Below the pieces are notes generated by a model. It made no database searches. It worked only from the letters and a program-made list of their open reading frames with translations, and was not told the DNA's origin. Positions 4,963 through 7,133 of a stretch of DNA of 21,925 bases are shown here, piece by piece (the first letter of the stretch is position 1; each line of letters starts with the position of its first letter). Both the position numbers and the translations under genes were made by a program. The stretch lies in the IMG/VR virus record IMGVR_UViG_3300006637_000042, positions 1 through 21,925 of that record. One strand, written 5' to 3'. The DNA is from a virus.

Positions 4963-5199
4963 TCACCTGACTGGCCGAAGTGTTCTGGACTGACCATGTT
5001 CCCAAGTCACAAACCCCTTGCGCTTGAGTGCGTCAATGTGGCATGAGACGCCATTGAGCGACCAACCAAACCGTTCCCCTATCTCGCGGAACGAGACGCA
5101 GAAACCACGCTCGTCTCGGAAATCGCGTATGTAATCAAAAACCCGCTGCTGCGTTTTCGTCAAGGCTACTTTGTCCGTGCTGGTTTTCGGCATTGTCAT
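4963..5199 (-). CDS. LexA-type winged-helix DNA-binding protein (no protease domain)
   Basis: The 78-residue protein corresponds to the LexA N-terminal DNA-binding domain only. It has LTKTQQRVFDYIRDF, then the recognition helix region SFREIGERFGWSLNGVSCHI, then ALKRKGFVTWEHGQSRTLRP, the LexA-like wing. The self-cleaving Ser/Lys protease domain is absent, so RecA-stimulated cleavage is not expected. It could be a regulator of early genes or an inhibitor of host SOS control. The ATG overlaps the initiator gene (ATGA), with GGAGGGG five bases upstream, so it is co-translated with the replication initiator. Confidence 0.85.
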   Translation of the reverse strand: MTMPKTSTDKVALTKTQQRVFDYIRDFRDERGFCVSFREIGERFGWSLNGVSCHIDALKRKGFVTWEHGQSRTLRPVR

Positions 5200-6113
5200 T
5201 TGCTCCCCTCCGCAAGCCTGCGCCTGGTGGCCTCAAACCTGTCAGCGTCAGCACCGCTGAACGCTTTCAACGGCGCACGCTCTGGCTGGCCGCCAGGCAC
5301 CCGCGAGACTCGCGGCTTCCGGTATGACTCGCCGTCTAGAATCTTTCGCCAGATTCTCAGGAAGTGGACGACGCCAACCGGCTCTTCAAAGTACCGGCAC
5401 TCCGAAAGCATCCCAGCGGCTCGCTCCAACTCGGCCAATTGGAAGGCATCGTCTGCAAGCTCCACCCAGCCCTCTGGTGGCCGCATTTGCGTTTGGGGGT
5501 TAGGGACAGCCGCTCGCTTGCCAGCGGCCTTCCAGGGGCCTCCTAGGAACTCCTGCCACGCATTTATGGCCCAGCCTGCCTGTCGTGATTTTCCTTCAAG
5601 AATCCGCAGGTCTTCGTCGCCGTCGTCGGCTCCCTTGGTAGTTGCGCCGTTTGACGACGGCGACAACGTAATTTCTTTTCTTCTCTCTTCTCTTCTCTTC
5701 TCTTCTAGTCCATCCGTAGTCTGGTTTTTGTCCGGAAGTTGTCCGGATTGTGTCCGGAGTTTGTCCGCTTTGCGTCCGTCAGCCTTCCGTCGCTTGTCCT
5801 TTAGCCGCTCTTTTGCAGCCTGCGAAAAGCGTTCTTCCCAACCGGAAATCCTCACCTTGCCGTCGTCTGAAAACGTCAACCAGCCTGCCTTCTCGACGGC
5901 CAGCCAGAATGCCGCATCTCCACCAGCGACTAGAGCCAGAACGTCTGGCGTGCCGTTGATGACGCCATCGACGGCGTTGAGTTGAACCCACCCCCAAAAG
6001 ATGGTGAGCCTGCCGACAACCACATCCGGCGGCTGGCCTGTCGCGGCCATAATCATCAAAGCTTCTGGCTTTGATGGCAGGCAGCAATCCACGGAAATCC
6101 ACTCACCGGCCAT
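5196..6113 (-). CDS. Phage replication initiator / replisome organiser-like protein
   Basis: The 305-residue protein starts MAGEWISVDCCLPSKPEALM, followed by a helical domain (to about residue 95) of the type at the N-terminus of phage replication proteins. A long, very charged low-complexity linker (about 100-155, with EEKRREERRKE) leads to a C-terminal domain containing WAINAWQEFLGGPWKAAG and FLRIWRKILDG. This two-domain layout with a flexible centre is like lambda O and DnaD-like initiators. The decisive support is in the DNA: the linker region carries an 11-bp iteron array and a homopyrimidine tract, as lambda O carries its origin. The start overlaps the preceding gene by 11 nt. The exact family is not certain; no helicase or polymerase motif is seen. 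Confidence 0.7.
   Translation of the reverse strand: MAGEWISVDCCLPSKPEALMIMAATGQPPDVVVGRLTIFWGWVQLNAVDGVINGTPDVLALVAGGDAAFWLAVEKAGWLTFSDDGKVRISGWEERFSQAAKERLKDKRRKADGRKADKLRTQSGQLPDKNQTTDGLEEKRREERRKEITLSPSSNGATTKGADDGDEDLRILEGKSRQAGWAINAWQEFLGGPWKAAGKRAAVPNPQTQMRPPEGWVELADDAFQLAELERAAGMLSECRYFEEPVGVVHFLRIWRKILDGESYRKPRVSRVPGGQPERAPLKAFSGADADRFEATRRRLAEGSK
5672..5706. other. 35-nt homopyrimidine/homopurine tract beside iterons
   Basis: All 35 bases on the plus strand are C or T, mostly TCTTC units, so the minus strand is pure purine. It sits directly at the end of the iteron array inside the initiator gene. In lambda an asymmetric AT-rich purine/pyrimidine segment next to the iterons is the part that unwinds; this could be its counterpart. 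The encoded peptide is simply Glu/Lys/Arg-rich. Confidence 0.7.
5706..5804. repeat. Iteron array, nine 11-bp units, candidate replication origin
   Basis: Nine consecutive 11-mers starting at 5706, 5717, 5728, 5739, 5750, 5761, 5772, 5783 and 5794 carry TCC (TCT once) at positions 4-6, and seven carry GTCC. The best copies are TTGTCCGGAAG, TTGTCCGGATT, GTGTCCGGAGT and TTGTCCGCTTT; the outer units are degenerate. The period of 11 is not a multiple of 3 and the protein shows no repeat here, so the pattern is kept at DNA level. One repeat per helical turn is how initiator binding sites are usually arranged. The array lies within the replication initiator gene, the standard place for a phage origin. 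Confidence 0.82.
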
Positions 6114-6740: not shown

Positions 6741-7133
6741 GTGCCTGCCAGGCCTTTCCGTGCCGGACCGCGCCTAGCCTGGCCCGGCCTAGCCCAGCCC
6801 AGCCTGCCGTGCCGCACCTAACCGTGCCTTGCCGCGCCACGCCATGCCGAGCACTGCCACTCCTGCCGTGCCTTACCAACGCGGGCGCAGCCTAACCACT
6901 CCCAGCCTTACCATGCCTGCCGTGCCATGCCGGGCCATGCCGGGCCATGCCTCACCCCGCCGTGCCTTGCCCGGCCGCGCCAATCCTGCCATGCCTTGCC
7001 ACGCCGCACCATGCCGCGCCCAGCCTCACCAATCCTGCCTTGCCGCGCACCGCCCTGCCAAGGCTTGCCACGCCCTGCCCGGCCCTGCCCAGCCAATCCT
7101 GCCGAGCCGTGGCCTGCCGGGACCAGCCTAGCC
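6741..7133. repeat. Degenerate pentanucleotide tract (GCCNN plus strand, NNGGC minus strand)
   Basis: About 390 bp consist almost entirely of 5-bp units, GCCNN on the plus strand (for example TGCCATGCCTTGCCACGCC), with occasional ACC, TCC or single-base slips. Because 5 and 3 share no factor, all reading frames become open and give Arg/Gly/Ala/His-rich or Pro/Cys/Ala-rich pseudo-proteins; I treat none as a gene. The minus strand, which is the transcribed sense, is strongly G-rich. The tract fills most of a 568-bp gene-free gap; positions 6574-6740 contain neither a convincing gene nor a strong promoter. Function is unknown; recombination, structured RNA or spacer are possible. Confidence 0.85.
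7073..7090 (-). other. G-quadruplex motif inside the pentamer tract
   Basis: On the minus strand this reads GGG-CA-GGG-CC-GGG-CA-GGG, four runs of three G with 2-nt loops, which meets the strict quadruplex pattern. It could form in the transcript, since genes here are read from this strand. It may be a by-product of the repeat. Confidence 0.6.

Follow-up and report, generated by a model that had tools for sequence, protein, structure and literature searches.

The window, that is, the whole 21.9 kb stretch of DNA analyzed here, is a viral contig fragment that carries a gene for a replication initiator, with an array of short repeats and a purine tract lying inside the coding region (Table 1). 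The host is probably a planctomycete, since the sole match in the genome collection was a Planctomycetota MAG, and relatives were found in 4 of 392 Planctomycetota genomes, this MAG included. Directly downstream of the initiator gene (4963–5199) lies a 78-aa ORF encoding a LexA-like winged-helix protein (PF01726, E = 4.5e-15; phrog_3502). Upstream of the gene, between two minus-strand ORFs, a region of about 360 bp (6772–7130) consists of degenerate 5-bp GCCNN units, with TRF periods of 5, 10, 15, and 20; nowhere else in the window is the GC skew as strong (-0.216). None of the genes in the window was identified as a helicase loader.

Table 1. Positions of the initiator gene, its encoded domains, and the repeat elements within it.
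Feature	Position	Strand	Basis or remark
Replication initiator gene, 305 aa	5196–6113	-	PHROG matches and 80 IMG/VR relatives
N-terminal winged-helix domain, aa 12–90	5844–6080	-	AlphaFold2, pLDDT mostly 92–98
Long helix after the winged helix, aa 98–122	5748–5822	-	AlphaFold2; residues 106 and 110 track half-site class in relatives
Initially described array of nine 11-bp iterons	5706–5804		Lag and shuffle tests
Weaker outer half-site TGTCCG (coding strand CGGACA)	5762–5767	+	Gene nt 346; TCCGC unit at 5764–5768
Half-site core TCCGGA (self-palindromic)	5753–5758		Gene nt 355
Half-site core TCCGGA	5742–5747		Gene nt 366
Half-site core TCCGGA	5731–5736		Gene nt 377
Two overlapping dyads, coding strand TCCGGACACAATCCGGA and TCCGGACAACTTCCGGA	5731–5758		Arms 6, loop 5
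Degenerate tract-side half-site GTCCAT (coding strand ATGGAC)	5708–5713		Hexamer start 7 nt before tract
35-nt purine tract on coding strand, candidate DNA-unwinding element	5672–5706	-	Composition scan

The initiator protein matched phrog_2509, annotated as 'replication initiation protein' (E = 6e-21), and phrog_9474 (E = 8e-19) over residues 1–167; with E values up to 0.1 allowed, the only other PHROG matches were phrog_3926 and phrog_38810. Homology to initiators of the phrog_2509/YdaU type was thus present in the N-domain (E = 6e-21 over aa 1–155) and did not extend over the full length, the PHROG match stopping near residue 155; the C-domain aligned only with that of its own clade. Pfam gave no significant match to the protein, RepA_N domain included, and the lambda O families (phrog_345 and phrog_391) were absent from the PHROG matches up to the same E value of 0.1. 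Distant relatives include proteins of E. coli phage TL-2011b and Xanthomonas phage CP2, as well as YdaU of a Rac phage. The N-domain invariants in our alignment were W5, K15-P16-E17, P29-D30, W40, W42, G77-W78, K101, R103, and R109. In the AlphaFold2 model, the winged helix comprised helices at 16–25, 29–46, 56–63, and 67–76 and wing strands at 79–81 and 86–89, and the long helix was followed by a low-confidence stretch (135–173) and a helical C-terminal part. Fold matches in BFVD were replisome-organiser, primosomal, and DUF1376 proteins, and Foldseek searches of the PDB with the full and the N-terminal model returned no solved structure at E < 0.001. The array and the tract together encode the end of the long helix and the predicted disordered linker.

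A sequence-only reading of the window had described nine 11-mers in perfect phase within this gene. The run was confirmed, with TCC at positions 4–6 of eight units and TCT in one, and a lag-11 run of nine never arose when the codons of the initiator gene were shuffled synonymously (0 of 2,000), which bears out the claim that the period is independent of codons. Widening the lags to 7–30 likewise gave no run of this length in 300 synonymous shuffles. The array was the top self-match of the entire window at both lag 11 and lag 22 (43/66 versus a mean of 16.6, SD 3.8), and its best lag-11 segments of 33–77 nt exceeded 1,000 of 1,000 synonymous and 1,000 of 1,000 codon-order shuffles. The protein was correctly said to have no repeat at this place, the units being read in all three frames. 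The nine units were not equal, however: only four or five were strong (three TCCGGA, TCCGC, and the tract-side GTCCAT), and the outer ones had little more than TCY in common. Lag 22 scored as high as lag 11 or slightly higher, in keeping with the 22-bp dyads seen in relatives (below). Taken alone, the count of perfect dyads in the window, namely the two overlapping 17-bp dyads, did not reach significance, and 8 of 100 shuffles did equally well.

We identified 80 loci in IMG/VR that encode relatives of the initiator, nearly all full-length, at 31–39% identity. They comprise 66 distinct genes besides that of the window, and the shuffle test accordingly covered 67 genes. The sequence-only reading held that homologues conserving the protein without DNA periodicity would speak against the array, and such a pattern was looked for; instead, both the protein and an array at the same place were kept, usually with half-sites that switch strand at intervals of about 11 bp. 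In 31 of the 67 genes, the signal was stronger than in any of 60 synonymous shuffles; in every such case it lay in the linker, at a lag of 22, 23, or 34. About half of the relatives were individually below significance in the lag and dyad tests. The best self-match lag of most relatives was 22 or 23 because the half-sites alternate in strand and so form dyads of about 22 bp, as in L020 (CGTGCGC-TCAA-GCGCACG). Dyads numbered 3.8 per 75 nt on average in the relatives versus 1.3 in shuffles, and of 186 gaps between dyad centers, 161 measured 11 or 12 bp. In a wider set of 156 genes, made up of the relatives together with L123-type and coliphage-type genes, 154 had their half-sites distributed over two or three codon phases, indicating that the constraint acts on the DNA rather than on the peptide.

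Four loci from the Planctomycetota genomes, whose linker DNA contains units resembling TCCGG/TCCGA or other units spaced by 11 bp, varied in the strength of the periodic signal. L450 carried a lag-33 (3 × 11) array of TTCCGA/TCGGAA units (0/500 shuffles) ending in GTCGGAC-T-AAGAG, and L449 gave a lag-22 signal (5/500 shuffles); L447, which is identical to L326, contained GTCCGGAAGTTTCCGGAC without a significant lag. All three encode Asp and Lys at helix positions 7 and 11, respectively, which are considered below. L448 combined a purine tract with two TTGTCGCCATC units, and was left out of the residue rule because its helix does not fit the numbering.

The 35-nt pyrimidine tract that had been reported to adjoin the array is present on the plus strand, although it overlaps the array by 1 nt rather than lying beside it. 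It was the sole homopurine/homopyrimidine run of at least 16 nt in the window and the most AT-rich 40 nt of the initiator gene (27/40). The distance between array and tract was nearly fixed: the hexamer of the last half-site began exactly 7 nt ahead of the purine tract in 123 of the 156 genes, and in 167 of 174 genes a C or T at the junction preceded AGAG or AGAA, a pattern that the window junction (ATGGAC-T-AGAAGAG) also follows. This register was measured rather than assumed, as the tract finder takes the longest purine run. The tract started in codon phase 2 in 133 of the 174 genes and in phase 0 in 40. A change in GC skew at the array, suggested by the sequence-only reading as a sign of an origin, was not found in a scan of the window; this is uninformative, given that the annotated genes around the site lie on one strand.

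We then compared the half-sites with the protein sequences. The half-site sequence fell into about ten classes among relatives, named after the arrays had been inspected; for L241 and L326, the class was assigned by eye in advance of tree building. In a tree built from the N-domain minus the long helix, which offers few columns and leaves many forks unresolved, the class changed at least 21 times. Among 16 helix positions, positions 7 and 11 (D106 and K110 in the window) were the most informative on class, with mutual-information z scores of 18 and 22, from which relatedness was not removed. CCGGAC occurred with Asp or Glu at position 7 and Lys at position 11 in the window, L326, L168, the L123 clade, and L229–L232. 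GTAACG was associated with Thr, Gly, Asn, or Ser at position 7 and Val, Ala, Thr, or Gln at position 11, and GCGCCC with Ala, Ser, or Thr and His; GCGCAC accompanied His and Ala in two separate clades. Within the L212–L233 group, flips between TCCGG and GTAACG were accompanied by a change of the helix. Comparison of pairs among 39 main-clade genes with N-domains at least 85% identical showed that the identity of the helix was 0.41 in different-class pairs versus 0.75 in same-class pairs, while that of the C-terminal part was 0.67 versus 0.70. The different-class pairs diverged in aa 104–113 and not in aa 88–95, the tract peptide, or the C-terminal part; a smaller class signal appeared at aa 56–63 of the winged helix (0.91 versus 0.80). 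Independent pairs on well-supported branches did not conflict with the residue rule, although at one to three per class they were too few for a formal test.

On these sequence comparisons, we give an even chance to the proposal that origin recognition across the phrog_2509 superfamily follows a modular code, in which helix residues 7 and 11 would set which of the roughly ten half-sites is bound and in which origin and initiator would switch together. As the helix and the array are adjacent in the DNA, their co-variation could partly be joint inheritance. Under an explanation of this kind, which concerns the recognition step and leaves the origin reading itself untouched, the helix and the array would recombine as a linked cassette and the winged helix alone would recognize the half-sites. 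The varying helix residues are encoded within about 30 nt of the array, and the signal at aa 56–63 points in the same direction; against it, unrelated lineages converge on Asp or Glu with Lys for CCGGAC, the pairing of His and Ala with GCGCAC arises in two clades, and neither aa 88–95 just upstream nor the C-terminal part carries a class signal. We therefore regard such hitchhiking as somewhat unlikely.

Taken with the precedents of lambda, SPP1 gp38/oriL, and pSK41 Rep, the array and the adjoining purine tract very probably constitute the replication origin of the phage, located where the initiator gene encodes the linker; initiator dimers would bind the dyads there, and the tract would melt. 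In the mechanism that we infer, from binding and dimerization through melting and recruitment to origin activity, the N-terminal domain (the winged helix and the following helix) would bind TCCGGA half-sites, and dimers would most likely sit on dyads whose half-sites are one helical turn apart. Several dimers would thereby be lined up along the same side of the helix, and the resulting strain would melt the neighboring tract, which is AT-rich and strand-asymmetric. The origin-encoded part of the protein, a disordered linker, would act as a spacer, and the C-terminal domain would recruit the helicase-loading machinery.

The sequence-only reading had favored a filament or stacked monomers, with initiator monomers bound to direct 11-bp repeats, one per helical turn. 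The units of the window formally qualify as direct repeats with an exact 11-bp spacing, and in some relatives neighboring half-sites stand on the same strand at 11–12 bp (107 of 512 pairs). The majority of neighboring pairs in the relatives were nevertheless in opposite orientation (358 of 512), which suggests two-fold symmetric dyads bound by dimers, and lambda O also binds its iterons as dimers (PMC6022878). In the window, the alternation is hidden by the core TCCGGA, which reads the same on both strands, and the array therefore resembles pure direct repeats. A monomer filament thus appears improbable, and the dimers may instead form a continuous row one turn apart.

Dyads and winged-helix dimers are also typical of operators, and the ORF that follows the initiator gene encodes a LexA-like winged-helix protein. 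The array could accordingly be one, at which the initiator or another regulator would autoregulate or block transcription while replication starts elsewhere. Such an element, however, would be located mid-gene, about 310 nt into the coding region, and would have no need for a purine tract, which follows on the 3′ side in fixed register in most relatives; moreover, the half-sites track the helix of the initiator itself. These features make an operator very unlikely. Selection on the protein, by which a basic, Q/K/R-rich flexible linker would yield DNA repeats by chance or slippage, is scarcely credible: the linker is of low complexity and predicted to be disordered and the tract encodes peptides resembling EEKRREERRKE, but synonymous shuffling that preserved this peptide never regained the run, the frame of translation differs among half-sites and tract, tandem slippage would not predict the dyad symmetry of the relatives, and no relative with the same linker peptide and scrambled DNA was seen among the arrays inspected.

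The comparison with the lambda O/ori arrangement made by the sequence-only reading held for the layout, an array with an asymmetric tract inside an initiator gene, and the lineage does differ, since no lambda O family matched the protein. In lambda, the origin occupies the middle of O. Dimers bind its iterons, imperfect inverted repeats of 19 bp, and the O-some strains and unwinds the AT-rich region beside them, with O providing the link to P (PMC7466680, PMC6022878). The lambda record places the iterons at O nt 349–433, with the inverted repeats 20–24 bp apart. The array of the window starts at nearly the same point of the gene (near nt 346, versus nt 349 of O), and both systems combine several iterons in mid-gene with a purine-rich, AT-rich stretch 3′ on the same strand, and an N-terminal DNA-binding domain with a linker and a C-terminal partner domain (PMC6022878). 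The half-sites studied here differ in being shorter, even in spacing (every 9–13 bp) without a clear gap between iterons, divided into about ten classes, and set at a fixed 7 nt from a near-pure purine tract.

SPP1 oriL likewise consists of direct repeats and an AT-rich unwinding element inside the gene of the initiator gp38 (PMC6316719); the likeness is one of layout, and SPP1 has a second origin elsewhere. For the RepA_N plasmid pSK41, four Rep boxes located centrally in rep are bound by the N-terminal 120 residues, and the linker encoded by the origin is dispensable (PMC5703833). This system differs in belonging to a plasmid rather than a phage and in its RepA_N domain, and matches to its fold (4pta, 4pql, 4pt7, and 5kbj) in Foldseek were very weak and not significant. 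The layout is therefore already known, and the lineage and the details are new.

Closer in sequence are the YdaU/TL-2011b-type initiators (phrog_2509) of Uetakevirus, Rac-like, and Xanthomonas phages, for whose origins we found no description in the literature searched. They share a homologous N-domain and a junction composed of a half-site, one base, and AGAGGAAG; they differ from the window in half-site class, which is GTAACG in YdaU and TL-2011b, and in the C-terminal domain, that of TL-2011b being a DnaT domain. The ydaU gene of MG1655 was considered as a K-12 test case and rejected, because its N-domain is different (DUF1376) from that of the Rac 442/2 YdaU and the K-12 Rac is thus not the right strain. 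The linker DNA of this gene (L245:2120–2977) contains TGTTCAAAC / GTTTGAACA repeats in both orientations, which are a sequence-based candidate for Rac oriJ; a position for oriJ was absent from the NC_000913 annotation and from the literature searched.

Finally, IMG/VR was searched without protein input for the DNA pattern TCCGGACNNNNTCCGGAC. As its matches often occur by chance, the pattern was used only together with a spacing control of 14 bp, and the test was only partly blind. At the matches (TCCGGAC pairs 11 bp apart), initiator or primosomal families were the commonest among the ORFs: four belonged to phrog_9474, three each to phrog_270, phrog_5810, and phrog_9327, two each to phrog_2509, phrog_1408, phrog_16167, and phrog_3992, and one to phrog_345, with overlapping memberships. 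No initiator or primosomal family was among the 25 of 48 families listed for the 14-bp-spaced controls. Such 11-bp-spaced pairs were located inside initiator genes of other PHROGs (270, 9474, 1408, and 345) at L146, L161, L156, L133, and L132, which suggests that the TCCGGAC half-site recurs across several initiator families. A TCCGGA array with a 21-bp period, produced by alternating spacers, was present in L117 (7165–7224) and L145 (1403–1462), where a 257-aa ORF had no PHROG match. TCCGGA pairs 11 bp apart without a long ORF occurred at L091:4623, L102:7515, L110:21, L121:3887, and L122:682, and are possibly operators or origins outside genes.

The design recurs in over a hundred related phages. 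The origin prediction now covers a large group of uncharacterized phages, and its coliphage members, with YdaU of the TL-2011b/Rac type, make it testable in laboratory E. coli. The natural switches of half-site and helix, represented by the class changes on the tree, render the co-evolution of initiator and origin directly testable. If the recognition code is true, a switch of specificity would amount to a handful of residues and the neighboring 70 bp or so, from Planctomycetota phages to coliphages.
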